Assembly (NCBI GenBank): GCA_001661515.1
Contig: LUVW01000007.1
Span: 925,455 to 989,454, forward strand
Direction: 5' to 3'
Length of the DNA stretch: 64,000 bases
From: Capniomyces stellatus
Lineage: Eukaryota > Kickxellomycota > Harpellomycetes > Harpellales > Legeriomycetaceae
A program made the position numbers and the translations under genes. Position 1 is the first letter of the stretch. Each line of letters begins with the position of its first letter. Under the pieces are notes generated by a model. The model was not told the DNA's origin. It made no database searches and saw only the letters and a list, made by a program, of their open reading frames with translations. This document shows, in pieces, positions 4,961-54,145 of this stretch.

Positions 4961-4988
4961 TTTGAATTTGAATTTGAATTTGAATTTG
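4961..4988. repeat. (TTTGAA)n microsatellite
   Basis: Four to five tandem TTTGAA units in intergenic DNA, read directly. Confidence 0.9.
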
Positions 4989-20659: not shown

Positions 20660-23600
20660 ATGGACAGCGCGACACAAGCCGAGTCTAGCAAAGCCCGCAA
20701 AAAAAGTAAGAGCCAGGGTAGAAAGAATGAAAGAGATAAGAGGGATAGGCGGGACAGGAGAGAACAAAAGGACAATAAGGGTAAAGAAGGTGGCGGAAAT
20801 AGCGTGAATGGAAATGAAAAGAAGGACGCAAAGAGTAAAAAAAGTCAAATGAAAGCCAAAATAGCGCGTACAGTAGTCCTAAGGTTTCCTAATGGAGGGG
20901 GCTTTAGCAAAACAGAGCAGGCATTATGGTGTATTGACAATATGTTTAGATTAAGAACGATTAGCGATTTTCAAAAATATGGATTGGAGTTAATCGACAT
21001 AAATTTTAGGGATAAGAAGAGTCTGCATCCAAAAAGAATCGGGACGGCAAAGCGCGAGTTGAATGAAGGTAGTGTGCGGGGCAACAAAAAGATAAAGACA
21101 GAGGGGGATGAGCATGGTTTACAAGGGGCAGAGGATGCGGCGAAAGGCACCGACGAAAGGCACCTAGCCGAGTCGAGCAAAGAGGCCAACGAGTTTGAAG
21201 AGAGTCAGAGCAGCTTTGCTTTTGAGGAAATAAAGTTCAAGGGAGCAATAGTATACACACAAGATACAACTTTCTATATTGTTGAAGAAAAGTACAGAAT
21301 GGTGTTTATTCTTGATGTAAGCGATAGTATGTACGTTTTGGATGTGGAGTCGGGGCGTCCGCTGCTGGATATTTCCCTAGAGACGCTGGAGAAAAGTTTG
21401 AATGGGATGGTTCAGCCGTACACTTTGCACTCGCACATTGGGCTGAAGCCATTTAACTGTGAACCGGTGATATGTGCCAGCATAATAGCGTACTATCCGG
21501 TTGAGAGGAACGAAAAGGAGTATGGTATTAGTTATGAGAGCAGTGCTAAGGCTGGCGGGAGTGTGGGGAGCGAGGGTGAGTTTAGGAATAAGGAGGGCGA
21601 GATTCCTTACTACCGGACGCTGGTGCATGCAGAGTACATTAGTATTGGCGGGGTTGGTCAAGTTATGGAGAAGGTAACGAGAAATTTGCACCAATTCAAG
21701 CAAGAAATACACGAGCGCAAAAGAAAGACAAGAGAAAAGAGAGATAATGACATGGAGCTGAGCGATGTTAATACCAACGATGACTACGAAGTCAGTAAGG
21801 CGAGCGGAGAGGGGTGGAATAGCGGAAAAAGTGGGGGAGTACCGGTGTCACCAATAGCAGAGTGTTTGCAGCTAGCGCAGTATTTTTTGGAATTATTACC
21901 AAGTTACTATGCAGGAGGAGTTGTGTTGATTACTGATGGGGTTTTGGAGTCGAATATAGGGGTTAGAAAAGTTTTTGACTCTATTGGGTGGTTTGTAGAA
22001 ACCGACACACAGCTGGTGATTATCCAAGTTGGTGCAAGCGGGGGATTCAATCCAGCGGTGTCGCTGGGTAATGTGGCAGACAACGAGTTGCTTAGATTTG
22101 TTGCAGAGTCGTTTTCAGGAAAGTTTATGTATGTGACGGATTGTCCGGATTTTGTGATATCAGGGGATATAAATTTTTACCACGACCAGCTGCTCATAAA
22201 AGCAGTCAAGTTGCGAAATATGGTGGCAAAGAATCAGCACCAACAGATCCACACGGGGCTACCGAGGCTTGGAGATATTCCGCGAGAAAGATTGAATGCC
22301 CAGCCTGGGCTTCCAAGAAGAAACCTGAACAACTGGGCAACCGCTTTTCCTTGGGACGAGTCGTCAGTATCGCCGGAGGTGGAGACGGTGAATGCGAGAT
22401 ACCTTGACTACCAAATGCCAATTGGGCTGGGGTTAATTATACAGGCACGGATCCACGAAGGGTTTGTATTGGCGGATGTGAAAGTGCAACCAATTTCGCA
22501 AAGGCTAGATGCGGGGAGTGGTGGGATTGGGAGCGAACTTTTGGTTGGAGAACAGGTGCAAGTGACACTAAAGCTGAACTGGTTAGCTAATGTGACCATT
22601 GTGTATAGAATAGTCAGCACGCATATAATAAAGAAGGCGGGGGGTCAGTTTGTGGATGGCGACAAGTCGAAGCTGCGAGGAACGATGCTTAGATCACAAG
22701 CGTTTCAAAATCTAGTGAAGATTAACATTAGGTCATACAAGCTCTTTACTCTGCAGTTTTTAGAATCATCACCTGAGGATGACCGGGATAACGCAATGTC
22801 TAAAAAGGCAAGGCTGATTCATATTTTTTTGAAGTCAATGGTGGAAAAGGACGAACGGCTACGAGCACTGTACTCACCGGCGATGTTCCCAATAACCAGC
22901 GTTGCAGAAAGGCAGCTGGAGCTGGGACGGGGAAGCAAGAAACAGCCTAGATGGGAGCTGATAGCGAATAAGCTTGAAGGGCACAAGCGAAGAATATACA
23001 AGCTGTTGGTGTCATGGGTTCATCTGGGCGGAGTGCAGGGGAGCTATAAGCAAACATCGGGTTCGCAGAGATCATCCACGTATCTGCTGTCAAGTAGGCT
23101 AGTTGAAATGTGCATTCCCAACTTGACGTTCAAAATGATGAACCAGTTTGCGGCTGACGTTTTTGAAGAGTTTGAGAACACGGTGCTGTACAGCACTGAT
23201 AGTAGTGGCGGTGTTGCTAAACAGGAGGGCGGTAATGAGGATGAGGTTGGAGCGCTGGACCAAAGCAGTGCTGGTGCAGAGTACAAAGACTTGAAGGGCA
23301 AATCAGAGACAGAGCCATATAAGAATGGGTCGAAACGGAGTCCACAGAACTTGACCTTTATTCCACTGGGCGACTCGCCTCAGTTGGCAATTGCATTTTT
23401 GCCCGACGAAATAGGGCTATACTTTGGATCGCCAACGTTTGTAGTGATGCAATGGGAGTTTTTGACCAACTGGTCCATAAGAACGACACTTAGTTTGTTC
23501 AACGGAGGAGTGTTTTCAAACAGGATGGTTTCAAGAAGCTTGCTGAACTCGATAATCAACTTTTTCCCCGTAAAAACCCTAGGCAAGTACGTCTCTCAGC

Positions 23601-26600: not shown

Positions 26601-29600
26601 ACCTGAGAAGACAGAGGTTGATATCAATCGATACTGGTGTGAAAGGCAGTCTGGGAGCTGAGCTTAGGATGGTCAACGTAGATGTTCCCAAGCCTTTTTT
26701 AGGTAAAAATAGTGGTTTATCAAGCTCAGAGCATGCGGATGGTGTTGGTGCTGATTTGCCCAGTTTGAAAAGTGGAGCTAACTTGGACGCTGGGGCTCGT
26801 TTAGGCAAAGGTAGTGGCAGCTTAGGTAGTTTGGAAGGCGGTAAGCAGGAGGAACAGGGGCTAATAAACGATATTGGGTATGCGTTTAGTGGCAGTGTTG
26901 CCAACTCTATCAAATGTCCAATGTTTTCCAAGGAGGCTGACAGCGAGCTGGGATACCTCGAAATACTGTACAAAAGATCACATGCGCAGTCGCTGTTCCT
27001 GGCTCAGCTCAAGGGGAGGAAGGTGTCGAAAACAGATATGAGTATAGCACTTGATTCAGGGATATTTGAGACAAAGCTGCTGAGGATAGATCTGACAACG
27101 TTGCTGTATGGCCTAGATAACTCAAGACAAGTTAGGTATGGCGGAGACCCGGAGCTGATATCTGCCAGCATTGAGCAAGACCACTCGAACGTCAACACTA
27201 GGTTTTACAAAAGCCTTCTGGTGTACTTTCATCCGCTTGATTTATTTAGTCAGGAGGGCTCAGGAGATCAAGAGTACCAGGTAGATCAAGAGTACCAGGT
27301 AGATCAAGGGTATCGGTTAGATCAAGAATGTCAGATAGATCAAGGGGATCAGGGGGAGATGAGTAAAGACCCTGTAGTGGCAAACTTTAACTCATTCTGT
27401 GGCAAACTGTTTTATTGTCATCCAAGAAACTCGTCAAACTGGTCAACCAAGCAGATGGTCGAGTACGCATTGAACCCATTGTATGCAAAGCTCAAGTATC
27501 AGATAGAGCTGAGCGGCGAGGCATTGGAGTTTGAAAACAAAGAGTTGGGCATAACGGATGTAGCAAATTACAAAAAGACTTGGTTGGTTGAGACTGGTCC
27601 ATTGCCGCTTTCTGTCAACTCGGCATTAGAAAATGCAGGAATTAGGTGGAGGCTAAAAGACTACAAGCTAGATTCGCACAAGAAAGTGAACATATTTCTG
27701 TTAATTGATTGTATGTGTCTGTCAGATGAAGTTTCTGGAAATATAAACGAGTTTGCAGAGCGCAAAGGAACAAACGCGTCATTTTCCAGCATTGACTCGC
27801 TTAGACAGACTAGTGGATTTAAAGGCAATAGTTTCAAATCAGCAAACTCGCTGGTGATCAACTCATTGCCATTATTGCAGGCTAAGCAAGTTGGCGACAT
27901 GTGTTCGGCAATAGAAAATTTCCTGTATCATCAAACACTTTATTCACTACATGACGCAGCGGTAGAGTCAGAGAGTCTTCTCGATACTGTTTGGAGCACG
28001 GTGGCAATAGCTAATAAGTTGAAAGTTCCCGAACTAGTAACGCAGTTTGGAAATTTTATGGTGCGCAGATTTGACTTGAATTTAAGAAAAGTGATTTCTT
28101 TGATTGACAATGATAAGAGTACAAACAGGAACACTGGACCGCATACAGCCAAGGGGCCAAGTACCATTAGGCCACAGAACGGTAACTTTAGTGCTGTTGC
28201 AGAAACGGCAGCTGATGACAGTGGGATCAACATTGGCGATGAGGTTGGTGACGACAATGACAGCAGCGACAGTGAAGACGATGAGTGCGACTTTAGTTTG
28301 GGGAGAAAAGATTCGGACATTGTATCAGCTGAAGGCCAAAGATTGCAGAAGGGATTCGATATTTTTATCAAGGAGTTTGTTAAAAAGGATCTGTTAGTTG
28401 GCGAGATTAAAGTGATTGGCAAATACTTTAGAGTGGATATTTCAAAGGCGGTGAAAGACTCGTTTAAAAAAGTCAGCAAGTACAAGTACAACAACAACGA
28501 TATGGATGACCTGGACAAGGATTTAATAAGGATAAACAAGTGGGATTCGTCGAGTTCGTACAGAGAGGATGTACGGGTAAAGGGCAAGTCTTACCGGATT
28601 TCAGTGCCAACAATCAATGATAAGAATCCCAGGGCGTGGTTGTTGATGAAGGTTAACAAGGCCAAGCATACAATATCGCTAGCAACGCACTACTACTTTG
28701 AAGGCTATGATGCACCTGTTTGGTTCCAAAACAAGGTTTTTAGGGTGGTTCGGAATCGTATAGGGTTGGCGTTGAAGCTAACAACAACAAGGCTGCTGCT
28801 TGAAAAGCTTGCAAACACTCACATCTGTTCCAGTTTGATACTTCCGCTGCACCCAGCCGGTACCTTGGCAACAGAGTCAGGCGTAAGCACAGCCAGCACA
28901 GCCAGCACGACTAAGTTTGGTTCGATTGCTGCTTCGGGCTATATCAGCGGCTCAACGGTAGACGTAGGTCTATTTTCTAATGGAAAGGGCAAGTACACCG
29001 AGTTAAGCGGTGGCATAATTACGGCAACCTGTTTGGACAGTGCAAAGGAACCAGTTGATTTGTTTGAGTATGAAGAGTTTGAGGGACATCAAATTGATGG
29101 TGCAAGGGTTGGCGATATGGGTCAGTTGGCTGTGGATGAGAATGAGTTGACTGGCAGCATTGACAAAGTTGAGGATTTGGACAGCAAAGTCAAAAGTGAT
29201 GATTTTGAAGTGTGGAGTGATGGAGCAATTAAGAGAAGCGAAATGGTTGATATTCTCCAAGGAAACGTTATTGATAAGGGTGGATATTACGGTTGCTCAG
29301 AAAAGTTTTCTGCTGCCTTCCCAGTCCATCCGAGAATCAATTCCAGCACAGCCTTGCAGGTAATAGGGACCACTGGGTTGAGTAATAATAGGATAGATAA
29401 CCGTGAGAATCACTTTGTGTTCAGATACGACAACACCGTGTTTTACGCTAAATTGTCGGCTCAAGAGTTGCCAGAGTTCAGCGAACTAAAGCTTCCAAGA
29501 AACGACGCAGCAAGCTCTGCTGGAAGCACAACGCGTCAACTGCCGAATGAACATAGGCCAAAAAGCCTGTTTGCTCAGTCTAGTAGTCCAATAAAATTGG

Positions 29601-32600
29601 TGCAAAAGAAAACTTTGAATAGCAGTGAAGTGCAGACATCAGACTTGGCAGAAAGAAACTATGGCTCGGTTTACTGCAAGAGTAACAGTGGCAGTCGTAA
29701 TTTTGCACGAAGCGTCAGCAGTGACATAATGGACGTGTCCAGTAGGATTGATAGAGCAGGGTTTGGAAATTATGGCACAAACGAGGAGGGTATACCAGAG
29801 GTTGGATTTAACGCGCACAGTTTGGCTGGTGTAAATTCTGGAATAGAAATAGCAAGAAATGGTCAAGATATTGTGAGCGGAAAAGCAGCAGGCCACGGCG
29901 GGGAAGCTGCTCCTAGAACCGAGCACTTTTCCAATAAGAGCGAGTCGTTTACTAGACAGTTGCCAAGGCTAGATGAAATCGATTATCTGCATGAAGACCA
30001 AAGGGAACGTATAAACGGAACACAGAGCGTTGGGAACGACAGCAGAGGTAGAGCGAGAAGGGCCAGCAGAAACCAGGAGGCGTATGTGCATAATAATAGC
30101 GCAGACGCAGCAGGTGAATATGGCAGTGTCAACCCTGTGCTTAAAGACGAATGCTTGGAAATCAAGATAGGCCTATCGTCAGTATTCTCATACCCAAGCT
30201 CGTCAAAGCTGCACAAGATAGTAGGTGGCCGTGAGCGGTCGAAGTCAAATGCAGCGGATAAGTTTTCATCAAGCTTGTTGTACTTGACTAGATCAGATGG
30301 CGCGATAGGCAATACCAGTAACTCATATGAGTCCAAGAGTATAGCTAAATCAAAGCCTTTCAAGTCAGCGCCTGTTCAAACAAGCAGGCTTGGTCCTAAG
30401 ATCAGCAATTTTCTGTACCAGACCCAAAGTCAGGATAGAGCCGGCAGAAAGCAGGTGGTGCCAGAGTTTGACGACTTTGAATTTGATTTGTTGAGCGATG
30501 TCATAATCGAGAACGAGGACGGGTTGGCTAATAGCAACAACGTTGTATGCGAGGACAAGGCGTCTAAAAAACATACTGGTGATTTGGTAAACTACAAGTT
30601 CGCGAACTCGGACGGTGTTCCAAAAGTAGACAGTAGCGAGTGTCAGAAGTTCAGGTCATTGCCAGGCACCGCACAGATAGTTTCGCCAAGCCTAAACAGG
30701 CCCAGAAACCTTCCAAAGATTGCAACATCAGTCAGCAACCAACTGCAGGCAAACAAGTCTCGATACGGGAGTCTGAAGCATAGCGAAATATCAAGATTTG
30801 CGAGTTCGGTAGGCGAAGATTCTAGGATCCCTAAACTGTTGCAGCGATCCAGCGAAACTTACGGCCCAGCTCACTCTAATTCTGCAGAAGCTAGTTTCAG
30901 TCTAGATTTTAGTCGAAGAAAGACTTTTCCAGCCTCCATAACATCCTCGTCATATGTGGGACGGCAGGTGGTTAGACCCACTGGTGAGCCAAGTCTCAGG
31001 TCGGTGCAGACTAGTAGCGATAATAATGAGCCGGGCATGAGTTTGGTGTCACCGGGGTTGGTGCTTAATCGAGTACCATCGCTCAAAAATAGCGATTTAG
31101 TGGACAGCAGCTCGTATAATACCAATAAAGAATACGCGTCGTCTTTGCTCAACAACAGGTCAAATTTGTCAACCCAAAATGGGGTTTCGGGCTATGAGAT
31201 TGATGACAATAAGAGCCTGAGCTATGCCCGAGGTTCAGTGGAACTTAGACCTTCAAACAGTTTGGCGCAGATGGCGGATAGACAGCTTAGCCTAGCCAAA
31301 AGCTCGTTGGGATCGGCTCAGCCACAGACTCATTATAGATCTCAGCAGTCAAGCAAGCACTATTTGGTGTTGCAGTTTTATGGACTAGACCAGCCTCCAG
31401 AAAAGATTACCCATGATTTAGTGGAATTCATATCGGAGCGGCTCGCGTGCTATGCGGTGCTGCCGGTGCTTTGCTTGCACCTGGAGAGGAACTCGAGGAT
31501 GTCCAATGAGGATTTGGACTTTATCTTCAACATTAAAAACAAGCCAGTGACCATTTATTTACCAGTGCCTAAATTTGCGCATTACGATAGCCACGCTACT
31601 AGGAAGGCAATAAACAAAAGGATGAAGTCCTTGAATCTTTTCAGAGGCAAAACTAAAGGTGCTAATGACGAGCCATTGTGTGGTAAATCGTCAATAAGTT
31701 TTGACGAAACGCCTATGGGGAGTACAGGGCTGATCCAGTTGCTTAAAACCAACATGGGGCGGTTGATCTCACCGTTCCTGATTCACTCGCAGAATTCGGT
31801 TAGGAATTTGGTTGGAGCAAACTTGGAAAAGTACTATTTGCCTTGCTTGAAGCAAAATTTACCCAAAAAACAGTTTGCTGGTGTTTCAGAGGTGGCAGAC
31901 AGCGACAAAGGCAAAGATCTGCGCCACACTGGACCAAGACCAAGCACAGGATTTGATGATAAGATACATACTCTGTCAATAAATGGAAGCAGTCCTAGAT
32001 CGTCACTGTTGGATGATCAGGACGCTGGTTTCTTGGGAGCTTCCCAAGCTGGGCTTAGCGAAGAGGATCTGATTTTGCTTACAAACTATGTGTACCTTTA
32101 CAACTGCCACCCAAGCAGAGCGCCGCCAGCAGAAAAAGCAGACATTGGCCATGGTATTGCTTCGTTGCAGATGGCACCGCTTGATGATAATTACAACATT
32201 GTGTGGGATGTATTGTACCCGAAAGAACCAGCAAACTGTGCTAATGACACTCCCAACGTAGATTGTGCCCGCAGCGTATTAAGTTCAGAGGCTGGGTTTG
32301 GTGGAGAAGGTTACACTGATACTGACTCTGACCCAGAAGCCGATGATGAGTTTTATAACAGATTGGAGCTGGATCCAAGGGGAGATACGGTAGAGATTTT
32401 GGAGCAGATACGAAGTGTGTCTAGAGTTTTGGAAAGCTACAAAACGCAAATAGGATCGCTCTGCAAGTCCCAAAAAGATTCGTATGTTTTGCAGGAACTA
32501 AAACCGAGTTCCAGCACCAATTCGAGCTCAACCTCTAGCTCCAACCCCACTCCTAACTCAAAAGCTATACCTGAAATAAAGTCAAATTCAAATCTAAGAA

Positions 32601-35600: not shown

Positions 35601-38600
35601 AAAAGGATGTGGTTGAGAAAAAGCTTAATGTGGAGCTGAACCAAAAGGTTTTGAAGATGTATTTGAAATGGGCTAGACAGATGCTGTATGTGGACTACAC
35701 AGTACCGTACAAGGAGACCCGCAACATAAATTATGTATTTGAAATGGCCTCCAGGATTTTCAGAGCTTATGACTCGCGCTTACAACTGGTGGTTTGGCAT
35801 AACAAGCTGAATCAAATAGCCGACAACTGGTATAAAATGTGTTCAAAAAAAAGAACGGACAAGCCGATGCAGGTCAAAAAGCGGTTAGGAGGAAATATGA
35901 TTGAGAGTGACGACGGCCAATCTAGCTATCCCAAACACTTGGGCACGAGCCAGGCCACGGAGTTGGGTGGAGAGCTAAGCGGGTTGGGCCCTGTTGCTGT
36001 TGACAATTCGGACCTTCCGCTTTCTTTGCCTAGCAACGAGCCACGGTCAGAGGTACTGACGAGTGAAATTTACGAGTTATTGAATAAGTCGCGCATTCTG
36101 CACTCAGTGAATGCGGCGATACCAATCACAACGTGTTTGCAGCCACCCTCGTACACGATAAAGTCGATAAACAGACACTTTGTGGTTATAAGCAGGATGT
36201 TAAAGAATTTTGCCGAAGAGTATATGGCTTACTTGCGATCTGTTGGAATGATTGAGGTTCATCGGATTGAGCGAAAGATTGATGCGGAGGAAGCGCTCGA
36301 GTTGTTGGCGATCCCTGCTTGGGTTAAGAACAAGATATTGAATGGCAGCCTGCCTTATGACGACTCGGCTGATGAAAAACTCCGATTTAGCACCGAAATT
36401 AGGGGAAATTCTCATTCTAGCTACGGCGTAGATAAAAAGTATCATGGTTATAATGGCGAAGCGCTTTGTGGTAAAAATAAAGTAAAGAGTAAGAGCGTTG
36501 GGGTGGTGTCTTTAGACAACAAAGCGGGGGGCTACAGTAAGCTGCCGAGAGACGCTCGCTCAACTCTGAATGTGAAACGCAGCCAAAGCCAGGATGGTTT
36601 ACACAGCAGCGACATAAAGGGAAGTTCAGGTCCAAGCTCAGCCTCAGCTTCAGTTGCAAACGCAAGCACAAGGACAGACGCCAATAGAATTGACTCAAGC
36701 ATCGCTGCCAATAAAATGAGAGCCAAAAAGAACAGAGTTCGAGTCAAGAAGTACAAACGCAGCAGTAGTGATGGGGGCAACCTCAAAAGCGAGTCAAGTA
36801 GCTCAGATAGCACGAATACCGGGAATAGTGTAAACGACTATGCTGGAGACAGCCTAAGCGGATCTACGACCGGTGAGTCGGATAGTGGGTCTGAAGATGG
36901 AATCAAGGACTGCGAGGAGACTGACTCGTACAGCGATAATAAGAGAAGGAACCCAAAGTCAATGATGGGTATGCTGGAGTCCTTGAGCGTTTTTGACATG
37001 TTTTTGACAGTAACAACATCGCAAACCTTTTTGTTGGTCAATGTTCGAACTGAGCCAAACTCGATGAACTTGATTATGAATGTGGTTACTAGACATTTAT
37101 CCATTTTGGCGACAACGGTTCCTGGATATAACAAGTCGCCGGTATCCCCAGCAGCACTCAAACTGATGACGTTTGAGATTGGCCAGCTGAAGAAACTATT
37201 GCAGATCAAATCGTTCACATATGATATCCAACTGAGGTACTTGTCAGAGCTATCAAGAATGGTGATTGCCAGGCCATTCAGTAGTACCAACAAGCGCGGA
37301 AATGATAGCGATTCTTTGGAAACAGAGCCGTCGTTGCATAATGAGCTTGATGACGGTGACTACGATTATGGAAACCTAAGCGACGATTCGTATTTCAAAA
37401 CAAGGGCGGATTATGACACCAATGCACCGCTTTCCACATCACTATCGTCCTACTACTCATCAAGCGACACGTATCCCCACAAATCCAGAAACAAAAAAGC
37501 TAAAAAGTACAGCTCAGTTAGCAATAATGGACTTAATGGGTATAAAGGGAACAACAAGAACCGCGCCATACCGGTGGCAGAAAAAATTGGACTTAAAGTT
37601 GATATGATGGCGGCAATGAAGCAGCTGAGTAAGCAGCCCCACTATTCGATAAGGTACTCAACGCATAGGCTGACCAAGACAAAGTTCCCGTTGATAGACT
37701 CTACAAAGTACGGTGATGAGTTTTGCGAGTCGTGTCTTTCCAACTTTAACGTGCAAGGAAAGCATAGTGGCACAGGATTTTATTCTGATACAGCAGTTTC
37801 AATGACAAACTCTGAATTTAGGGCTGGTGACCGTGGCGAAGGTGATTTGGGTGGTAGTAGCGACTTGAGAGGCGCTAAAGCGAGAACAAGCAGTAACAGT
37901 GTTTATAACAGAGACAGTTCAAGCTACTTCCTCAATACAAACAGTAACCTCAACGTCCGTGATAGCTCAAAGGCTTACAAGCATACTCATGCACACAAGC
38001 ACTCGTTTAACTCTAATCAAACGAACTCGGTTCATAGCTCAGAAATCAACGGCTTGTCTCAGCCTCAACACAACCCAAAGCCAAGCACCCGAACCTTAGG
38101 TGGTCAATATCGATTGACGCACAAGCAAGGTAAGATGAAGTTCAGCAAGGAGATTGTCGACTTTATGCTGGATAATAGCCAGAACTATGGATTAAGTTCA
38201 AGCGGACTAGTAAAGTCCTCGCTGGGCGTTGTCTACAGGTCGTATTTGGGATGCGAGAATATAAATAGACTGAATGCCTCTGCACCAAAGAAATACAGCT
38301 CAGGCCTATATATCCCTTCGATAAACACGACGTCTGAATCTGGCTCTAACATCAACGCCAACACCAATACCGACTTTTACTACAATTCAAACTACAACAA
38401 CAATGTAAACGGCTATAGCAACGACTTCAATAACTTGTTGAATAGCAAGTCTCTGTCAACACAACCACTGGAAGATGGGTCGTTGCTGTCTAATCGAGTG
38501 AATAGTAGCTATCTGCTTAACCAGGATGGATCGAAATCTAAGATGAGTCTATTTTTAGTCTCGTGTAGCTGCTACTACTGCAATTCCACCACAGCTGCTC

Positions 38601-41600
38601 GAGTGGCTAAAAGAAACAAAGCCAAGTCAAGCGCTGTTTCACCATTAGCCAACCAAATTAACGATTTAGATATGGCCAACTCTGATGAGCTAGAAATTAG
38701 CAATGCTAACGGTGCCGACAGCGATGGACTTGAGATTATTGTAGACAGCGACTCGCCAGTTTGTGGCGGATATGTCAGCGGATACAGCTTGCGAGATACA
38801 TGCCACAGCCAATTTCAGACCAAGGGTCGAAATCGGAACAAACACGAAGTTTCAAATAGTCGTAAAGGTAGAGATGCCAAATTGTCTGCATTTAACAGCG
38901 AGCCGCAGAGCCAGCCACAAATCCTGAACCAAAAGAGAGTTTATGACAAAGATATATCTGGCGGGATGTACGGCAGACGGCTTTGTGATTCTTGCGCCAA
39001 AGGAGCGGAGATAGATCAGAGAGCAAACACACAGAGTGGCTATAATTTAGAGTGTTATGGAATTGTGGATCTGGACCCAATATCTACTCAGTGGGTTGAA
39101 AGCACAAGAAAGTCTACAACGGACAACAACTTTATATCAAAGAACGAACCAATCGTTTTGAACCAGAACTACTATGACAGCAAGGCTAAATCCTGGGCTT
39201 TGCATGATGCAGTTGTCAATTATCATTCAGACTATCATTCCAGCGACTCGCAATCCAATCCAGCTCAAGGTTCAAGACTGAACGCAAACAATTATCCCAA
39301 CGCCTACAAATCACAAAAACCAGATATTGACCCTGCACATTTCCCATACTTTGATAATGCAAACACAAAGTCCGGCACTGATGTGGCGGCTTTGGGCACT
39401 AAAGACGGGCAATACCGAGCTAACGATGGATGTTCTCTGGTATCTGTTCCCGGGATATTGACAAACAAGTTCACTGCAGGCAATAGTGGAAACTTTTTTG
39501 GGTCCAAGGGCAGCAAAGAAGGTGTACAGTTCAGTGTCAATTCAAAGGTCAGGTTTGGTTCTAGAGCAGCTGTGGACTCAAACAGATTCGCTAGCTCCAA
39601 AAATGGATTTATTGAACCTGGCAAACCCATCAGTGGCGAAGGCCAGCCAGGCGGTATCAGCAGAAGCGCCCGCGCTGATGTTCGGACAGTTGGGGGCAGA
39701 GGTGTGGGAATGTTTGGTTCGCAGACTAAAGATAGCGACAATGCAGCGATTAGCACAAACTATCTAAAGCACCAGCAGATCATTTCGTCGGGATTACAAG
39801 CGATTTTCAGACCCAACAGCGCAGTGAAGCCAGAAGCTAGGAATGGTGGGTTGGTCAAAAGCGATGGTGTTGGGGCTCGTGGTTTTGCAGGGAACTTGGC
39901 GAACAACAGTGCAGCTATTGATGGCGGTGAGCAGGCGCACCCTGGCATAGGGTTGCACGGTTCAAGCAACGCCAATGCCAACAATAATGGCTTTGGAGGA
40001 ACAACAGAAGCTGATGATGATGGCGACAGTGATATGGTTTGGGTGGATATGTTTGATTGGCAAATAAAAGGGGCCGAGTGGGTTCGTGACACTGCGTTGG
40101 TTCTGGACCTTACTAATCCTACATCAACTAACGTTGACTTGAACATTGAGTTTAAAAACTGGTCAAACGCCTTGATTAGCGATACCTTGTACAAGGCGCA
40201 GTCAGATTATCTCCGAGAACGCAACTGGTCAAAGGTGTACAAGAATATAGCCTATCCAAAGCCGCTGAACTCCACGCTTGCTGCAAAGACTAAAAGTTCT
40301 GGAAGCCTAAAGCAAGTACAAATCGACTCGCTTCCTGTAATTGAATTTCTTGAAACCATGCCAGAGCTTATTCTGGCATCGAGTGAAAGCGAGTCCTTTA
40401 AATCGTTTTTGAGCTTGCAGCTCCCCGTAACCACAATTATTAGCTCGCTGATCGAGCACCACAAGTCGATGTTTGTTGCAAACTATGTCAACGGAGTAAC
40501 GTTGGCAAACGAATCTAGACTAGTCAAGGACACCAAAGTGACCCCTTTCAGCAACACGTCAAGCAAAAGAGGACTTAAACACAAGCTAAACACTAAACCC
40601 AAACCATTGCATAAACCCGTATCAAACAAGCTTGTTAGTGTGTACAACAGCAAGAATAGTCCAACGTTGAAGATGTTGGGTAGAAGCAGAAGAGAACTGT
40701 CTGTTTCCTCAGGCCATAATAACCATTCTAGAAATCCAAGCAATGCCAGTGCTCAGCTCCAGAGGTCATTGGTCGGCATTTCAATTGACCGTAACATTGA
40801 TGAAAGCGATAAGGCCGAAGCCCAGATGAAGCCCGTGTACCATAAAAACGGCTTGCTGGGCGTAGGGGGCGGTGTGGAGGTGAAACCTAACTCCAGCACT
40901 CTATTTAACTGGGCCAATTTGTCTCCGCTGATTCCAAACTTCCAGGCATTATCGCACAGTTCGTCGGTTATGCAACAGCTGACCACCGAAAACGCTAGCT
41001 TTAATTCGCGGATTGTGTCTCAAGACGAAGACCGATTTTCAACAAAGAACAGGATGGCTGGAGATGCTGATCGCGGAGCGCTGAAGACTCGGCTGGATAA
41101 ACATGGCTTGGTTGTCAGAGATATGGATGATAATGAGCACCCTGTTTTAAGCGACGGAGATGCATCTGAGAATGATCTGTATAGTGATAGCTCCAGCGAT
41201 ATAGCTGGGAACGGATCTAGAAACATGGGTTTAGACCCTGGCCATAGCTCAGGCAAGAGTCCATATGCTAGACCAAAGAACAAGTTCCTAATTGAAAACC
41301 ACAAGCTGGTTGGCAACAGCTATTCCAAGGCCAGCAACAGACAAGGGTCCGGCTTTGAATCGAGACAAAGGAGAGTAAGGCATGGGTCTGCTGATTTCCG
41401 GACCTCTGGGTCAAATTTAGATCCGATTTTTAATTCTGGTGTCAAACTTGGGCATGCCAAACACAAGTCTATGAATGGCGGCAATAGCAGCATCAACGAT
41501 CTGCCGGGGCAAACCAAACGCAGATCTGTATCGTGTGCAAATAACGAGTATTCTCGGGTCAAAGTGCCTGATTTGCGAGTAAAAATTTCTGCTAAAAGGA

Positions 41601-44600
41601 AACAGCGTGCTGTAAATGTAGTTTCTCCCTGGATTTGCAAATCACACTACAAATCCAACAAAACAAAACGCAAAAGTGGTTCACAAAGCGAAGACTCAAC
41701 TGCTTACAAAAGCGGAGGTGATGGCATTCAGCCTGGTTCAAAGTTCCGCTTTAAGAATCCGGCTCATGGTAGTATCGACCTGACCTCAAAGATTCTTTCG
41801 ACTCCCAATTTTGCAATATCCCCTGTTCTCCCCAGCTATCACACAGCCTATGCCGAGTTTAACAGCAAGAGTTCGTTAGCTAAAGCTGATGCAACCAACA
41901 ATAACTTTGGTTCTAATAGACTCATGAATGCTTTTTCCAACAATAATGTTCAGAGCCGTATTGGCAGCTATAACAGTTTTGTTGGCGATTCAAAATTGAC
42001 ACAGCCTTCCTCATTCTCTTACTCTAACATGGAATATCTTGCTGCAAATCTTCTAAACACAAACAAAAACACGAATACAGCACACATACCTTTAGAGCCG
42101 AGCAACCACCATCTCCGGCGCCATAGAGCATCACAGTCGGTCAATAACGCAGTTTCGTTTATGGCACGGTCAAGCAATTTGTCATTGGTTTCTGGTATTG
42201 ATAGCAACGAGACTGATCAATCAAACTCAATTGCCAAGACTGGATTTAGTAAATGTATTGACAAAAAACCAAGAAGTAAATGCAGATCCAAAACGCAAAA
42301 ACTTAAAACACTTGCTGGTTCTTCATTATCGTACACCAATAAAAGCAATGCCTGGCCTCAAAAGTCAAAATACAATACCGAGCTAAGAACAATGGTTGAG
42401 CTAGCTCCTGGAACCTTATTGACGCTGTTTCCATTCTCAACAGACTCACAGGAAATTATGATTAAAAACAAGAACTTTGACGGATTCTTCAATGGCTGCG
42501 ACCTCGTTTACCAACACTGTGCTTTTAGAGATATGCTTAAAGCACACGGGGAACAATGTAAAGCTGGTTTTAGATCCAATAGCAACAGTAGCAACAGTAG
42601 CGAGAATGACAATAGTAGCGAATACTTTGACCAGCTGACAACTGGTTGGTTGGATTCCCGAGTTGAGCTTACAAACTGGTGTTGCAATCCCAGCTTTGCT
42701 AGACTCGTTTTGCTGAATCCTTACAGCCCAGACTTTATGGTTGTGATTTGGTTGTGCAGGCCGCAGTTGAAACTTGCGCCCAAACATGGCAAGAATGCCA
42801 AGCTAAGCCATAACGAACAGCATTACCAGTCTACTGGACACAGAAATGCCGACTTCCAGCACCAGGATCATAAAAAACGCTCAAGTCCAAACAAATACAA
42901 TCCAGAAAAACCAGAATCTTTCTCTCAACCAACCCATGGTAGTTGGTCCAATTCTGGTGGGTTTGGCAGTAAAGAATTGGCAAAGTCAGATTTGGCCAGC
43001 ACAAGTAAAAATAGCCAATACAAACCGGAAAAACCGCTTGGGAGCTTCCAATCGATATACAAGAACTCGTTTGAAGCGAAAAGATCTAAGCTTGGAAGCT
43101 TGCACGTCAATACAGATTTGAAGTTCAAGTACCACCTGAATAATGAATTAAACATGAAATCGCCCAACCTATCCTATAACTGGCTGAGCTCAATGCTGAA
43201 CTTTAAGCTCAGTTTGTACAAAACGCCGTGGCTAAATCCCCATGAAAACGGACATTTGAGCCAACTTTACCGCACTCGCAATACTGGCTACTCTTTAGCC
43301 GACAATAGCTACAACGCTAATAATGCAGATTCGGTTTTGAGAACCATCAAAGACAACAACCTCTCCAGCGATATCGCATTCAACAACGTTGCCTACAACA
43401 ACACGAACGCCTTAACCACCAAAGGATTGGCTGGAAATACCATCTACGGGAACGCTGTTAGCAGGGGCTTAAAGAACAGTGGATTTGCTTTAAGCGGCGT
43501 AAAGACTGGCAAGCTTCAGGCTGATAACCAAACTCGTGGAGCTGACAACAGCACTCAGATCAACAACCTTGGCAACGAACTGCAGTTTTCTAATAATTTC
43601 GGCTTGGGAAGCGTCAATGACGAGATGATAATGTACAGCGATTTGGCTCTGCTAAGAGATGACCCCGCGTTTGACTCTGTCACAAGCGACAGCGACTCTA
43701 GTGGAATATACAACACCCAAAGTCACGACACGGATGCAGGCACAGATGTCGGCAGCAAACTTAGCAGTGGAATCGAGCCCAACACCTCTAGAAAAGGATC
43801 TAATGCTCTTGGGTTTAAACTAAGCTCTGCAGACAGCAGTGACAACAACTCTGATACTGACCCTGACTCTGCCTCTGACTTTGGCTCAGACTCTGGCCGA
43901 ACCTCTGGCGCGTCATCTAGCTACTATTCTGGCGCTAGTCCCGTACTGAACTCGGAAATGACACACAAGGCCGAGTCTTATGAAAACAGCGATGCTATAC
44001 AGCTGGTAAGGAATTTGAGTCTACGAGTCAGCCTCGAAACTAGGAACGAGCTCAACAGTTTACCTAGCAGCACCAGGAACGCTAGGAACAAAAGTCCCGG
44101 TTCTAGTAATAGAGAAGCTATCGATAATGCCCTTAACTCATCAGTTTCATCTTTGCAAACTGTCAAATCAATCAAGATTCAAAATAGTGGATCCCCAGTC
44201 AGCCAACATTCTCCAAATCCTACTAACCTGTCCAATACAATTCCAGACTCAACACCAAGTCCCTTGTCTAACTCAAATACAAGTTCCGCCCAGCCAATAG
44301 ACCATGACACTGCAAGCCCTGAAAGTCCCAAAAAGCTGAATCCAAAAAACCTGAAATTGAATCTAAACGCTTCCAACAAAGCATTGGTTCACCGCCACCT
44401 ACAATACACCCCAAGTCGCATTCATTCTGCCCCACTACTTCCAATTACAACTATATCTAACCATGGCGAATCCACGGCAGATGAGTTCCAAAATTACACC
44501 GAAATCATATCATTAATAAAGCCAAATAAACATGAGGCCTCGGGCACATCTCCAAACTTTAGTAATGAACCAGCTAACAACCCACACGCGTCCAGTAGCA

Positions 44601-45340
44601 ACACATTTTATATCGGTGGCGATGGTTTAAGCACGACTGGTATACTAGACAATTCTACTTCTAATCCCCCACTTACCGATGCCACTTGCAACGATAAAAG
44701 TGTCCATCCCACTTTGGAGTCCGATGAAAAAGATGATGATAAGCTCAATGCTGGTCCAACACCAGTTCTAACTTCAACACCGGGTCCAATCCAACCTGTA
44801 CTTAAAGGTTCAGATGCTGGTTTGTGTTCGACTTCAGAGTCTAATCCAGAGTTGAGCCACGAACCAAGGCCTGTTAATGAGAGCTGTTCTAATCTGGATA
44901 CTGGCGATTCCACCAGTCTGAACCAGCCAACCAAGGCGCTTGAACACAACGCAAAGGCCAGCTCAACCTCGAACCTTTATTCCGTTTTGCGAAACAATGA
45001 TAACTTTGGCTCGCCACTCAAGATTACGCACAAAGCTGGTAAACAGAATGAAAACCACCGCTTGGACAACCAAAAAACCGAAAACGAAAGTGCCATGAAC
45101 AAAAACCCAGGCCCAAGCCAAGGTGTGAACGAAACTTTGACTATCGATGATTTACAAAAGCTCGCCAACATCCCTCAGGACTTTGAATCATACAATGATT
45201 GGACTATTGTAGACATTGCATCTATTTCAAAGTACAGGAGAGTTGATGGTCTATTTGAGGCAGAAAAGAGACATCTCAATATCATCCTTTCCATCATTAG
45301 TGGTGGTACTTGGTTTAGTTGCTTGCCTAATGACATCTGA
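20660..45340 (+). CDS. Giant SZT2-like protein (KICSTOR scaffold homologue), 8,226 aa
   Basis: One uninterrupted frame of 24.7 kb. SZT2 in animals is the largest KICSTOR subunit; it holds GATOR1 on the lysosome so that nutrient loss shuts off mTORC1. After a Lys/Arg-rich leader (1-70), residues about 72-510 follow the SZT2 N-terminus: an opening strand-helix block, then a von Willebrand A-like domain with DVSDS (219-223, a MIDAS-type DxSxS) and VVLITDG (421-427). Next comes the segment IGLGLIIQARIHEGF (about 585-600). Further conserved-looking islands lie at about 3,565-3,640 (LVLQFYGLDQPPEKI), 4,790-4,870, 5,440-5,560, 6,455-6,530 and 7,325-7,370, plus the C-terminal end at 8,150-8,226. They are separated by very long Ser/Asn-rich disordered stretches with Asn-Thr and Asp-Gln repeats. 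No intron is needed, unlike most neighbours. The N-terminal assignment is fairly strong; homology of the later islands is weaker. In-frame introns inside the low-complexity parts cannot be excluded. Confidence 0.8.
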   Translation: MDSATQAESSKARKKSKSQGRKNERDKRDRRDRREQKDNKGKEGGGNSVNGNEKKDAKSKKSQMKAKIARTVVLRFPNGGGFSKTEQALWCIDNMFRLRTISDFQKYGLELIDINFRDKKSLHPKRIGTAKRELNEGSVRGNKKIKTEGDEHGLQGAEDAAKGTDERHLAESSKEANEFEESQSSFAFEEIKFKGAIVYTQDTTFYIVEEKYRMVFILDVSDSMYVLDVESGRPLLDISLETLEKSLNGMVQPYTLHSHIGLKPFNCEPVICASIIAYYPVERNEKEYGISYESSAKAGGSVGSEGEFRNKEGEIPYYRTLVHAEYISIGGVGQVMEKVTRNLHQFKQEIHERKRKTREKRDNDMELSDVNTNDDYEVSKASGEGWNSGKSGGVPVSPIAECLQLAQYFLELLPSYYAGGVVLITDGVLESNIGVRKVFDSIGWFVETDTQLVIIQVGASGGFNPAVSLGNVADNELLRFVAESFSGKFMYVTDCPDFVISGDINFYHDQLLIKAVKLRNMVAKNQHQQIHTGLPRLGDIPRERLNAQPGLPRRNLNNWATAFPWDESSVSPEVETVNARYLDYQMPIGLGLIIQARIHEGFVLADVKVQPISQRLDAGSGGIGSELLVGEQVQVTLKLNWLANVTIVYRIVSTHIIKKAGGQFVDGDKSKLRGTMLRSQAFQNLVKINIRSYKLFTLQFLESSPEDDRDNAMSKKARLIHIFLKSMVEKDERLRALYSPAMFPITSVAERQLELGRGSKKQPRWELIANKLEGHKRRIYKLLVSWVHLGGVQGSYKQTSGSQRSSTYLLSSRLVEMCIPNLTFKMMNQFAADVFEEFENTVLYSTDSSGGVAKQEGGNEDEVGALDQSSAGAEYKDLKGKSETEPYKNGSKRSPQNLTFIPLGDSPQLAIAFLPDEIGLYFGSPTFVVMQWEFLTNWSIRTTLSLFNGGVFSNRMVSRSLLNSIINFFPVKTLGKYVSQPMYRLPTASQCGLETVHEENGPIGDIKMSTDELIRSIHLSQKSSFDETGICLIKMDRPIHLLLSPLSIGAAFRRKLMDNIEAANSLKVSTGLHLRSSSWEWRYMAVKKDEKPGENTGKNQESVYVQSEYDQIEITQTLYRVAVEVCLNRLQLGYSIFSASLGSILASEKDARLSPSLFTDKKEDVIDGCDCTIFNEQSRNFNVTFYSEFPGEDDKTILTSCRYTVLIDLERSCVRTEVCIEPFSYSFMRNVLEEDVSIQVPIASFQQILQPNRKSEFLPPQIPGFLHPTSMFAPVSMLPMSRFQLRLISLPKIESLPRANMKYKRKNTRKLIEQEKNKLDLLARHLKLEGNGIDYPERYYSEYHKSAYSNVEGKGLEMPPPQNNEAKLRIKGHTSRGLAARGRRLSSASGQGGFITFPVNKQASSRVDTKERTDVYFSNHATQSRRQSVDGSVVVDDMDVDNGGKDEMVVAAGPSDAYSASRHRESSSRKRVISSPSKVLINKIAEKRSTFVAFDQHLYNPMSNSNTNSNSNTNSNSNFNPNSNPNSVSNLIISSKHNSHPNSVSSVNAGYDAGSGANSEYNHKVNDKPTNTELLKCSLSPNNVSNTNTNTNTNTNTNTNTNTNTNTNTSTNTNTNSDIDSISIAGTSDVESIITDEMGRHPVHKRKKDVRLANMAETEFDTRLVVEKATYIIEKSDLMDPAAKVSNFDGSDLNPLAHYKEYERNPLISQLLESVQTSEPGRQKVTFKPESDTATKASKQSEDASLKNAEISLLDLAYDLDASGDFASVAFRIFLEYSLFSYSDAFVVLREKFYQLQFSGRIMNQLLKFDKGVRISSSSPSQLVNNPVIDKWFVKRLSNNRSFLLITFPDITTCTSTKRFSTSNGELDSENGGLAGPSNVNRGFRMSGGNNMSRDGEAFDENARYSTRESAKDDALESKSDIYTNSIGTSSIKDALQMNIDSANVAKHTGAARGAEPASKSLDQYSQNYTITFECSIETEHLRRQRLISIDTGVKGSLGAELRMVNVDVPKPFLGKNSGLSSSEHADGVGADLPSLKSGANLDAGARLGKGSGSLGSLEGGKQEEQGLINDIGYAFSGSVANSIKCPMFSKEADSELGYLEILYKRSHAQSLFLAQLKGRKVSKTDMSIALDSGIFETKLLRIDLTTLLYGLDNSRQVRYGGDPELISASIEQDHSNVNTRFYKSLLVYFHPLDLFSQEGSGDQEYQVDQEYQVDQGYRLDQECQIDQGDQGEMSKDPVVANFNSFCGKLFYCHPRNSSNWSTKQMVEYALNPLYAKLKYQIELSGEALEFENKELGITDVANYKKTWLVETGPLPLSVNSALENAGIRWRLKDYKLDSHKKVNIFLLIDCMCLSDEVSGNINEFAERKGTNASFSSIDSLRQTSGFKGNSFKSANSLVINSLPLLQAKQVGDMCSAIENFLYHQTLYSLHDAAVESESLLDTVWSTVAIANKLKVPELVTQFGNFMVRRFDLNLRKVISLIDNDKSTNRNTGPHTAKGPSTIRPQNGNFSAVAETAADDSGINIGDEVGDDNDSSDSEDDECDFSLGRKDSDIVSAEGQRLQKGFDIFIKEFVKKDLLVGEIKVIGKYFRVDISKAVKDSFKKVSKYKYNNNDMDDLDKDLIRINKWDSSSSYREDVRVKGKSYRISVPTINDKNPRAWLLMKVNKAKHTISLATHYYFEGYDAPVWFQNKVFRVVRNRIGLALKLTTTRLLLEKLANTHICSSLILPLHPAGTLATESGVSTASTASTTKFGSIAASGYISGSTVDVGLFSNGKGKYTELSGGIITATCLDSAKEPVDLFEYEEFEGHQIDGARVGDMGQLAVDENELTGSIDKVEDLDSKVKSDDFEVWSDGAIKRSEMVDILQGNVIDKGGYYGCSEKFSAAFPVHPRINSSTALQVIGTTGLSNNRIDNRENHFVFRYDNTVFYAKLSAQELPEFSELKLPRNDAASSAGSTTRQLPNEHRPKSLFAQSSSPIKLVQKKTLNSSEVQTSDLAERNYGSVYCKSNSGSRNFARSVSSDIMDVSSRIDRAGFGNYGTNEEGIPEVGFNAHSLAGVNSGIEIARNGQDIVSGKAAGHGGEAAPRTEHFSNKSESFTRQLPRLDEIDYLHEDQRERINGTQSVGNDSRGRARRASRNQEAYVHNNSADAAGEYGSVNPVLKDECLEIKIGLSSVFSYPSSSKLHKIVGGRERSKSNAADKFSSSLLYLTRSDGAIGNTSNSYESKSIAKSKPFKSAPVQTSRLGPKISNFLYQTQSQDRAGRKQVVPEFDDFEFDLLSDVIIENEDGLANSNNVVCEDKASKKHTGDLVNYKFANSDGVPKVDSSECQKFRSLPGTAQIVSPSLNRPRNLPKIATSVSNQLQANKSRYGSLKHSEISRFASSVGEDSRIPKLLQRSSETYGPAHSNSAEASFSLDFSRRKTFPASITSSSYVGRQVVRPTGEPSLRSVQTSSDNNEPGMSLVSPGLVLNRVPSLKNSDLVDSSSYNTNKEYASSLLNNRSNLSTQNGVSGYEIDDNKSLSYARGSVELRPSNSLAQMADRQLSLAKSSLGSAQPQTHYRSQQSSKHYLVLQFYGLDQPPEKITHDLVEFISERLACYAVLPVLCLHLERNSRMSNEDLDFIFNIKNKPVTIYLPVPKFAHYDSHATRKAINKRMKSLNLFRGKTKGANDEPLCGKSSISFDETPMGSTGLIQLLKTNMGRLISPFLIHSQNSVRNLVGANLEKYYLPCLKQNLPKKQFAGVSEVADSDKGKDLRHTGPRPSTGFDDKIHTLSINGSSPRSSLLDDQDAGFLGASQAGLSEEDLILLTNYVYLYNCHPSRAPPAEKADIGHGIASLQMAPLDDNYNIVWDVLYPKEPANCANDTPNVDCARSVLSSEAGFGGEGYTDTDSDPEADDEFYNRLELDPRGDTVEILEQIRSVSRVLESYKTQIGSLCKSQKDSYVLQELKPSSSTNSSSTSSSNPTPNSKAIPEIKSNSNLRNKPKSKPKPVSKQYKGRDKHTEGGGVTESELGLRLSKVQSPDSDVFSGLGIDGCKVEQHSSSSSKLTGLEYHDESGTESELSSAKQMTMVGFTVWGVGHINLDSLLRRIIRVYWESVCELVMESYFSIILKTVQIKTLMAKRRQAEIQDLVSFLGMQNIGSIPATEMRFIKMGNDVARLATAVKDIIRHSCAQLDPHLSLTDIVAKDNLVDNDDSKALKSRAKRRQDVLKKLGGVELHDLNKQNKEALNILSKASQVAMISGVFSYASSSQLNGNGTAAEMDLGHGTLGHNPVYKMPSSLVSFGNRQSVGPSAGIAAENDKLKTASPLGATNQKLNDAKSIHALKFNDISNRHKSAGWLKNIDSMRQESVVRPSNSPDVKASPLVPSAASSFSRLRNSRTVSTINSISEQYISTTNNRNEGVVDAVNNRTGFALPFSSTNDFAQSGVAGKGQNSSQPRVAASVMPSPDRHEGHGNKCADNKVSDTKQSRTGAALNASNSSSLNENINFLGKSYLSLKHVNRGRKSSLKQLVGAGAGVGAGVGVENDTVLAVENDSEPVLKSRDVAGSDLVANASYLFSGVGRNGNRATEPNQAANNTNTNANINTSIIQNNYLFGSDSTSQKQTPKIKSKYSSSSKLQNLSKYPKNHSKSSANILSSRAANITGPEPVSNSILSANPVHSLYKQDVQNAVSSKYESLDMHHHSSRIPSLNDEHINESLTKYPYPELVGMSALDTHIHETVYLYSNAEKVSNQPNSSNPPSAKIEARPSKSVQLSGGQHHDSLAKSGGVPLSYYGDPVMSCKNILCKPVLRHVFVFIQVFGERVNLIGYNVSSEYWSLLSTAIEERLKVEQLRYELGRLVAHYEYGIFEGVRVLQNMLFGLNCYLDRTGVTWMDTNFSRDLVNHYDESYKVQVGNQISYLKPEIVEFYSELDKSTTGSAIGVDSVLPIDLDSYKITSNVQKSDAGRTDGILGLESGSRVLSAQRQKPATVSTDTDVLKTRREKDVVEKKLNVELNQKVLKMYLKWARQMLYVDYTVPYKETRNINYVFEMASRIFRAYDSRLQLVVWHNKLNQIADNWYKMCSKKRTDKPMQVKKRLGGNMIESDDGQSSYPKHLGTSQATELGGELSGLGPVAVDNSDLPLSLPSNEPRSEVLTSEIYELLNKSRILHSVNAAIPITTCLQPPSYTIKSINRHFVVISRMLKNFAEEYMAYLRSVGMIEVHRIERKIDAEEALELLAIPAWVKNKILNGSLPYDDSADEKLRFSTEIRGNSHSSYGVDKKYHGYNGEALCGKNKVKSKSVGVVSLDNKAGGYSKLPRDARSTLNVKRSQSQDGLHSSDIKGSSGPSSASASVANASTRTDANRIDSSIAANKMRAKKNRVRVKKYKRSSSDGGNLKSESSSSDSTNTGNSVNDYAGDSLSGSTTGESDSGSEDGIKDCEETDSYSDNKRRNPKSMMGMLESLSVFDMFLTVTTSQTFLLVNVRTEPNSMNLIMNVVTRHLSILATTVPGYNKSPVSPAALKLMTFEIGQLKKLLQIKSFTYDIQLRYLSELSRMVIARPFSSTNKRGNDSDSLETEPSLHNELDDGDYDYGNLSDDSYFKTRADYDTNAPLSTSLSSYYSSSDTYPHKSRNKKAKKYSSVSNNGLNGYKGNNKNRAIPVAEKIGLKVDMMAAMKQLSKQPHYSIRYSTHRLTKTKFPLIDSTKYGDEFCESCLSNFNVQGKHSGTGFYSDTAVSMTNSEFRAGDRGEGDLGGSSDLRGAKARTSSNSVYNRDSSSYFLNTNSNLNVRDSSKAYKHTHAHKHSFNSNQTNSVHSSEINGLSQPQHNPKPSTRTLGGQYRLTHKQGKMKFSKEIVDFMLDNSQNYGLSSSGLVKSSLGVVYRSYLGCENINRLNASAPKKYSSGLYIPSINTTSESGSNINANTNTDFYYNSNYNNNVNGYSNDFNNLLNSKSLSTQPLEDGSLLSNRVNSSYLLNQDGSKSKMSLFLVSCSCYYCNSTTAARVAKRNKAKSSAVSPLANQINDLDMANSDELEISNANGADSDGLEIIVDSDSPVCGGYVSGYSLRDTCHSQFQTKGRNRNKHEVSNSRKGRDAKLSAFNSEPQSQPQILNQKRVYDKDISGGMYGRRLCDSCAKGAEIDQRANTQSGYNLECYGIVDLDPISTQWVESTRKSTTDNNFISKNEPIVLNQNYYDSKAKSWALHDAVVNYHSDYHSSDSQSNPAQGSRLNANNYPNAYKSQKPDIDPAHFPYFDNANTKSGTDVAALGTKDGQYRANDGCSLVSVPGILTNKFTAGNSGNFFGSKGSKEGVQFSVNSKVRFGSRAAVDSNRFASSKNGFIEPGKPISGEGQPGGISRSARADVRTVGGRGVGMFGSQTKDSDNAAISTNYLKHQQIISSGLQAIFRPNSAVKPEARNGGLVKSDGVGARGFAGNLANNSAAIDGGEQAHPGIGLHGSSNANANNNGFGGTTEADDDGDSDMVWVDMFDWQIKGAEWVRDTALVLDLTNPTSTNVDLNIEFKNWSNALISDTLYKAQSDYLRERNWSKVYKNIAYPKPLNSTLAAKTKSSGSLKQVQIDSLPVIEFLETMPELILASSESESFKSFLSLQLPVTTIISSLIEHHKSMFVANYVNGVTLANESRLVKDTKVTPFSNTSSKRGLKHKLNTKPKPLHKPVSNKLVSVYNSKNSPTLKMLGRSRRELSVSSGHNNHSRNPSNASAQLQRSLVGISIDRNIDESDKAEAQMKPVYHKNGLLGVGGGVEVKPNSSTLFNWANLSPLIPNFQALSHSSSVMQQLTTENASFNSRIVSQDEDRFSTKNRMAGDADRGALKTRLDKHGLVVRDMDDNEHPVLSDGDASENDLYSDSSSDIAGNGSRNMGLDPGHSSGKSPYARPKNKFLIENHKLVGNSYSKASNRQGSGFESRQRRVRHGSADFRTSGSNLDPIFNSGVKLGHAKHKSMNGGNSSINDLPGQTKRRSVSCANNEYSRVKVPDLRVKISAKRKQRAVNVVSPWICKSHYKSNKTKRKSGSQSEDSTAYKSGGDGIQPGSKFRFKNPAHGSIDLTSKILSTPNFAISPVLPSYHTAYAEFNSKSSLAKADATNNNFGSNRLMNAFSNNNVQSRIGSYNSFVGDSKLTQPSSFSYSNMEYLAANLLNTNKNTNTAHIPLEPSNHHLRRHRASQSVNNAVSFMARSSNLSLVSGIDSNETDQSNSIAKTGFSKCIDKKPRSKCRSKTQKLKTLAGSSLSYTNKSNAWPQKSKYNTELRTMVELAPGTLLTLFPFSTDSQEIMIKNKNFDGFFNGCDLVYQHCAFRDMLKAHGEQCKAGFRSNSNSSNSSENDNSSEYFDQLTTGWLDSRVELTNWCCNPSFARLVLLNPYSPDFMVVIWLCRPQLKLAPKHGKNAKLSHNEQHYQSTGHRNADFQHQDHKKRSSPNKYNPEKPESFSQPTHGSWSNSGGFGSKELAKSDLASTSKNSQYKPEKPLGSFQSIYKNSFEAKRSKLGSLHVNTDLKFKYHLNNELNMKSPNLSYNWLSSMLNFKLSLYKTPWLNPHENGHLSQLYRTRNTGYSLADNSYNANNADSVLRTIKDNNLSSDIAFNNVAYNNTNALTTKGLAGNTIYGNAVSRGLKNSGFALSGVKTGKLQADNQTRGADNSTQINNLGNELQFSNNFGLGSVNDEMIMYSDLALLRDDPAFDSVTSDSDSSGIYNTQSHDTDAGTDVGSKLSSGIEPNTSRKGSNALGFKLSSADSSDNNSDTDPDSASDFGSDSGRTSGASSSYYSGASPVLNSEMTHKAESYENSDAIQLVRNLSLRVSLETRNELNSLPSSTRNARNKSPGSSNREAIDNALNSSVSSLQTVKSIKIQNSGSPVSQHSPNPTNLSNTIPDSTPSPLSNSNTSSAQPIDHDTASPESPKKLNPKNLKLNLNASNKALVHRHLQYTPSRIHSAPLLPITTISNHGESTADEFQNYTEIISLIKPNKHEASGTSPNFSNEPANNPHASSSNTFYIGGDGLSTTGILDNSTSNPPLTDATCNDKSVHPTLESDEKDDDKLNAGPTPVLTSTPGPIQPVLKGSDAGLCSTSESNPELSHEPRPVNESCSNLDTGDSTSLNQPTKALEHNAKASSTSNLYSVLRNNDNFGSPLKITHKAGKQNENHRLDNQKTENESAMNKNPGPSQGVNETLTIDDLQKLANIPQDFESYNDWTIVDIASISKYRRVDGLFEAEKRHLNIILSIISGGTWFSCLPNDI
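25415..25504 (+). repeat. Coding Asn-Thr microsatellite
   Basis: 90 bp of AAC/AAT-ACA/ACC/ACG hexamers encoding an Asn-Thr dipeptide tract (residues 1586-1615 of the SZT2-like protein), with one Ser replacement. Synonymous differences between units suggest it is old enough to have drifted while the amino acids were kept. A second Asn/Ser run lies just upstream at about 25170-25240. Confidence 0.9.
27266..27355 (+). repeat. Coding 18-bp tandem repeat, 5 units
   Basis: Five 18-bp units starting GATCAAG at 27266, 27284, 27302, 27320 and 27338. They encode DQEYQV, DQEYQV, DQGYRL, DQECQI and DQGDQG (residues 2203-2232). The first two units are identical and the later ones progressively diverged, indicating recent duplication at the 5' side. 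The tract adds an acidic hexapeptide ladder between structured segments. Confidence 0.9.
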
Positions 45341-53242: not shown

Positions 53243-54145
53243 TCACACTCGCCAGTTTTTATTTTATTTTTATATTGCAAAGTTTATTTTATTTTTATGT
53301 TGTTGGGTTTATTTTTTTTTGCTGCAAGTCAATCGCTTGGTTTTGACTGTAAATTCACGTTCATGGGTTTTGAATTTACAAATGCGTTGCTTTAGCTTTC
53401 TAGAGCTAGTTGAAAGTCAAGGTTTGCTTGGACTGCAGCCAATAGATGGCAGATGGGTTTGGATGATTTAGTAGTATTCCACTAACCCTTTAAAGTGTTT
53501 TTCCTGCTATCGTTTGTCTAGGCTTTACTATCAACATAGCGCTACTCTTAGTGGCCAAACTGCTCTTTTTTTATTTTTATTATATTGATTATTTTCTCTT
53601 TTGCTGATTTGATTTTTAAAAATGAAAATAGATCTAGAGTTTGGATAATAATTTAGTGACAAATTAGCAGTCCTAAAAGATGAATGATGGTTGTGATAAG
53701 AGCTTGATTAGATTAAATACAAGGTAAGCATTGGAGTAACATTGTGACTTTTAAACCATATTTAAAGAACAACGTTTACTGGATTTGGGTTTAAATCAAT
53801 CCAACTCCACACAATAAAATAAGAAAGAAAAAAAAAGTGGTAAAAAAAAATAAAAATAGGATGAAAAAAAAACTCGAAAAATAGCTTAATTTGGCACTGT
53901 TCGTTTCTAAAAACATCGAGAAAAATCGAATAAATAAGTAAATAAACACAAGAGAATAATGCATTCATCCTTTTTATATTGAATAGATTATCGAGTTTAA
54001 TACAGTATAAAAACTGGTTTAAAGCACTGTTCGCCCTCGCTTCAACTATATATACATATATATCGATTCATTTATCTTTTTGTAACATTTATAGTTTAGC
54101 TTAACCATTCTATTTTATATTTAAAATTTTTTTTTTAAATTGAGA
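53243..54145. other. Intergenic, promoter region of ETF-QO
   Basis: About 900 bp of AT-rich sequence without a supported gene. TA-rich blocks lie within 150 bp of the ETF-QO start. Confidence 0.5.

Follow-up and report, generated by a model that had tools for sequence, protein, structure and literature searches.

In animals, SZT2 is a scaffold that helps to anchor a nutrient-sensing brake on growth. For fungi, the main text of a study by Barua et al. (2025; PMC11836306) reports KICSTOR in non-Dikarya lineages, with components missing in Kickxello- and other lineages; it mentions neither Harpellales, Smittium and Zancudomyces nor protein length. Our literature search for SZT2 together with Harpellales found no paper. 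Here we describe a frame of 8,226 codons in a stretch of 64,000 nucleotides from Capniomyces stellatus (the window). The encoded protein is very probably a single-copy orthologue of SZT2 and, by descent from an animal/fungal ancestor, most likely the scaffold of KICSTOR.

The frame runs from ATG to stop without any internal stop codon and is the longest in the window, where five frames reach 250 aa or more. A genome search with its N-terminal 682 residues found one copy. An earlier note on this DNA had described a single 24.7-kb frame with an SZT2-like order of motifs near the N-terminus, and both statements were borne out: in the translation, an opening block is followed by DVSDS, VVLITDG and an A-R-x-H-E-G-F segment. 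A homologue search with residues 1-1400 returned only one match among 1,553 candidates because candidate length was restricted to 0.55-1.75 times the whole query, and a search with the Coemansia protein returned 18 matches, query included, among 1,233 scored candidates. Neither of these length-restricted searches reached SZT2 from animals or Mucoromycota. From the 18 homologues, 16 Kickxellomycotina proteins of 4,762-5,297 aa were combined into a profile (the shorter proteins P0018 and P0019 were excluded), which the whole frame matched with an E value of 7.8e-284. After removal of two low-complexity stretches (nos. 4 and 18 of 19, E = 1), 17 islands passed the threshold of E 0.01. They all follow the same order, from position 9 to 5071 of the 5,079 profile positions and from residue 60 to 8218 of the protein, and together comprise 3,181 residues. 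Conservation is highest in the N-terminal island, whereas two of the 17 score weakly (0.8 and -1.6 bits; E 0.001 and 0.0053). As a control, the protein was reversed and, in ten further versions, block-shuffled; none of these produced a stretch under 0.01, and a single stretch came out at 0.044.

SZT2 was the only family found below E 0.01 in sequence searches of the PDB, both with the single sequence (0.0017) and with a profile that took in 8 of the 18 homologues (1e-06); with one homologue the E value was 2.1e-05, and the sole row outside SZT2 was a chance match at E 0.4. The profile aligned in five collinear stretches, individually weak, between residues 90 and 3055 of human SZT2. For the N-terminal island, an AlphaFold model was calculated from an alignment of 15 of the 18 homologues and the piece from the window. 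The top four Foldseek rows obtained with this model were human SZT2, and despite its low confidence, Foldseek and VIA-align both ranked human SZT2 above the VWA domains of Ku, TFIIH and DEPDC5, with about 15-23% identity to human SZT2 in the structural alignments. When seven other pieces were aligned on trial to homologues of full length, most of them were placed wrongly. The profile search, the structural ranking and the behaviour of the frame as one gene thus support the proposal of the earlier note that an early-diverging fungus encodes an SZT2-type scaffold, and no other VWA-containing family scored better.

Several results weigh against this assignment. The best single stretch reached only 10-12 bits against human SZT2, and most of the frame has no direct match to it. 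Neither half of the protein matched a Pfam family, where the existence of an SZT2 family is itself not established. The N-terminal model is poor (mean predicted local distance difference test score 51, 316 of 682 residues below 50), and the structural rows with the best Z scores have a root-mean-square deviation of about 14 because the two domains are differently placed. KICS2 (PF09404) was not detected in the genome, nor did it match in any control genome, and Sestrin was not detected in a genome search that had no fungal positive control.

Of the partners that the earlier note had proposed to look for, ITFG2 and the GATOR1 subunits DEPDC5, NPRL2 and NPRL3 were found in the genome. ITFG2 (Pfam 4.8e-22; PDB ITFG2 9.8e-08) matches in a single frame of 2,782 aa (L015:778-9126, minus strand), about six times the length of the human protein (447 aa), with two Pfam stretches some 2,100 residues apart. 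All three GATOR1 subunits are encoded: DEPDC5 by an uninterrupted frame of 4,889 aa on contig C14 (L016, L017; IML1 1.4e-88, DEP 1.6e-12), NPRL3 within a frame of 1,364 aa (3.1e-56) and NPRL2 in pieces (1.5e-25). NPRL3 lies outside the window (C57:913994-916873); it shares contig and strand with SZT2 and precedes it by about 29 kb, a linkage that may be due to chance. Rag GTPases matched on two contigs, and Raptor, TSC2 and the FRB domain of TOR were detected as well.

PDB entry 9v0j carries the title GATOR1-KICSTOR; its SZT2 chain was modelled with 292 residues and was aligned at 53-351. Entry 25ge pairs ITFG2 with a 1,245-aa SZT2 chain whose match corresponds to the C-terminal part. For this reason we infer that GATOR1 lies on the side of the N-terminal region. 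Based on homology and on the partner genes present, the VWA region would most likely bind GATOR1 (DEPDC5, NPRL2 and NPRL3), while the C-terminal half would bind the ITFG2-containing module. The scaffold would thereby keep GATOR1 at the vacuole, where the tethered complex is predicted to switch off Rag GTPases and TORC1 under low nutrients. An orthologue that left KICSTOR and now serves another scaffold role appears unlikely. The searches for KICS2 and Sestrin without a match would fit it, as would the statement in the main text of PMC11836306 that, for Kickxello- and other lineages, it is difficult to judge whether an incomplete KICSTOR remains active. The retention of ITFG2 and of all GATOR1 subunits and the strong conservation of the N-terminal island argue for a scaffold still working in KICSTOR, and the search for KICS2 lacked a positive control.

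The extreme length, together with spacers of up to 923 aa that have no homologues in the profile, could also suggest that several neighbouring genes, or exons separated by in-frame introns, merely happen to read as a single frame. We consider this very unlikely. The islands extend to within 8 residues of the protein end, which makes both ends part of one conserved protein, and the Kickxellomycotina homologues, each predicted as a single protein, carry the same islands in unchanged order. In 16 of 17 cases, the spacers fitted the codon usage of the islands best in the SZT2 frame. The sole intron-like arrangement within the frame has a length that is not a multiple of three and is thus out of phase, and tandem repeats within the frame are short. 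Compared with the Kickxellomycotina profile, the protein has an excess of 3,147 residues, 2,902 (92%) of which fall between islands; relative to the islands, these spacers are enriched in Ser, Asn and Gly and depleted in Trp, Phe, Ile and Leu. Collinear islands, shuffled controls and spacer codon usage agree that the frame is one gene. Another VWA-containing family (Ku, TFIIH subunits or DEPDC5/Iml1) in place of SZT2 is scarcely credible, given that SZT2 ranks top in both structural comparisons and is alone in the sequence searches apart from the chance row, that islands C-terminal to the VWA domain match SZT2 in order, and that the genome carries a separate DEPDC5. DEPDC5/Iml1 was considered individually and rejected, as the frame has no IML1 Pfam match, the DEPDC5 row came 25th in Foldseek and the DEPDC5 gene lies on contig C14.

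The earlier note had rightly put the length at more than twice that of the animal protein: 8,226 aa correspond to 2.4 times the human SZT2 chain. It had also regarded the lack of introns as unusual; this is less striking than the note held, as ITFG2, DEPDC5 and NPRL3 likewise match inside long uninterrupted frames, whereas NPRL2 is interrupted. The intronless state is therefore not special in the Capniomyces genome, and the remaining unusual feature of SZT2 is mainly its length. Human DEPDC5 has about 1,600 aa and human NPRL3 about 570 aa. Within the KICSTOR-GATOR1 arm, SZT2, ITFG2, DEPDC5 and NPRL3 all lie in very long frames here; TOR, Raptor and TSC2, with frame lengths of 2,118, 1,685 and 2,291 aa, are less extreme. 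It is conceivable, though rather doubtful, that the arm was swollen as a set and shares a new property, possibly with fewer subunits (no KICS2). If so, common spacer growth could point to assembly driven by linkers or to dense phosphoregulation at the vacuole. The spacers of SZT2 most likely serve as flexible linkers that the scaffold tolerates, and they may contain phosphorylation sites. As a natural extreme of size, the protein shows in its islands, as opposed to its spacers, which parts of the scaffold are invariable.

The earlier note had further suggested that a homologue in this lineage would newly place SZT2-type control deep in opisthokont history. This was largely pre-empted, since the main text of PMC11836306 already reports KICSTOR in non-Dikarya fungi; no mention of the long frames of SZT2, ITFG2, DEPDC5 and NPRL3 was encountered in that text. 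The finding that SZT2, ITFG2 and a complete GATOR1 have been retained together in a Harpellales-like gut fungus supports loss, not late gain, as the reason for the lack of KICSTOR in classical yeasts.

Table 1. Features of the SZT2 frame (window coordinates; bit scores refer to the Kickxellomycotina profile).
Feature	Position	Strand	Evidence
SZT2 orthologue (very probable), single 8,226-aa frame	20660..45340	+	profile of 16 homologues, E 7.8e-284
Island 1, residues 60-741: VWA-like domain and following domain	20837..22882	+	390.8 bits
VWA-like part, residues 187-518	21218..22213	+	aligned to human SZT2 9v0j_D residues 53-351
Island, residues 2638-2960	28571..29539	+	77.0 bits; residues 2696-2728 weakly align to human 1954-1986
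Island, residues 3472-3641	31073..31582	+	36.5 bits; weak collinear match, human SZT2 about 2156-2228
Three islands, residues 4793-5217	35036..36310	+	31.1, 41.8, 48.8 bits; BLASTP with one Coemansia homologue E 1e-34
Island, residues 5421-5681	36920..37702	+	100.5 bits; Kickxellomycotina counterpart matches human SZT2 3020-3055 (profile vs PDB)
Long spacer, residues 5682-6458	37703..40033	+	777 aa vs 591 in profile
Longest spacer, residues 7260-8182	42437..45205	+	923 aa vs 34 in profile; codon usage still best in SZT2 frame
C-terminal island, residues 8183-8218	45206..45313	+	profile positions 5036-5071 of 5079, E 7e-07; 8 residues before protein end

Among the neighbouring frames are an SGT1-family protein, ETF-QO and acyl-CoA oxidase. 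Within the best 120 of 8,000 matches, the five closest relatives of ETF-QO were from Smittium and Furculomyces (70-75% identity), which are described as Harpellales, and this places the genome near that order. ETF-QO is split over two frames (window 54125-56294, plus strand) and consequently has at least one intron, in contrast to the uninterrupted SZT2 frame. A 945-aa frame on the minus strand (window 10986-13823) has no Pfam match and contains 12-base tandem repeats at 11237-11354; a PX domain is located just upstream (13985-14524, minus strand), and the two perhaps form one spliced gene. The end of the window coincides with the end of the 989,454-base contig, where an A-rich run occupies window positions 63961-64000 and no telomere-like repeat is present in the last 400 bases.

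With human SZT2 (PDB 9o5a, 9o5d, 9o5e and 9v0j), the Capniomyces protein shares a VWA-like domain at the N-terminus that contains DxSxS and ITDG motifs, the domain following it, and collinear stretches in the central and C-terminal parts, whereas it differs by its low identity and by long spacers in a chain of 8,226 instead of 3,432 aa. The SZT2-like hypothetical proteins of Kickxellomycotina (Coemansia, Martensiomyces and Kickxella) share the 17 islands, collinear over the full length, but have only about 5,000 aa, and the closest one found is 26% identical to the frame. In common with KICSTOR of other non-Dikarya fungi, as presented in the main text of PMC11836306, Capniomyces has a fungal SZT2 and ITFG2 alongside GATOR1.
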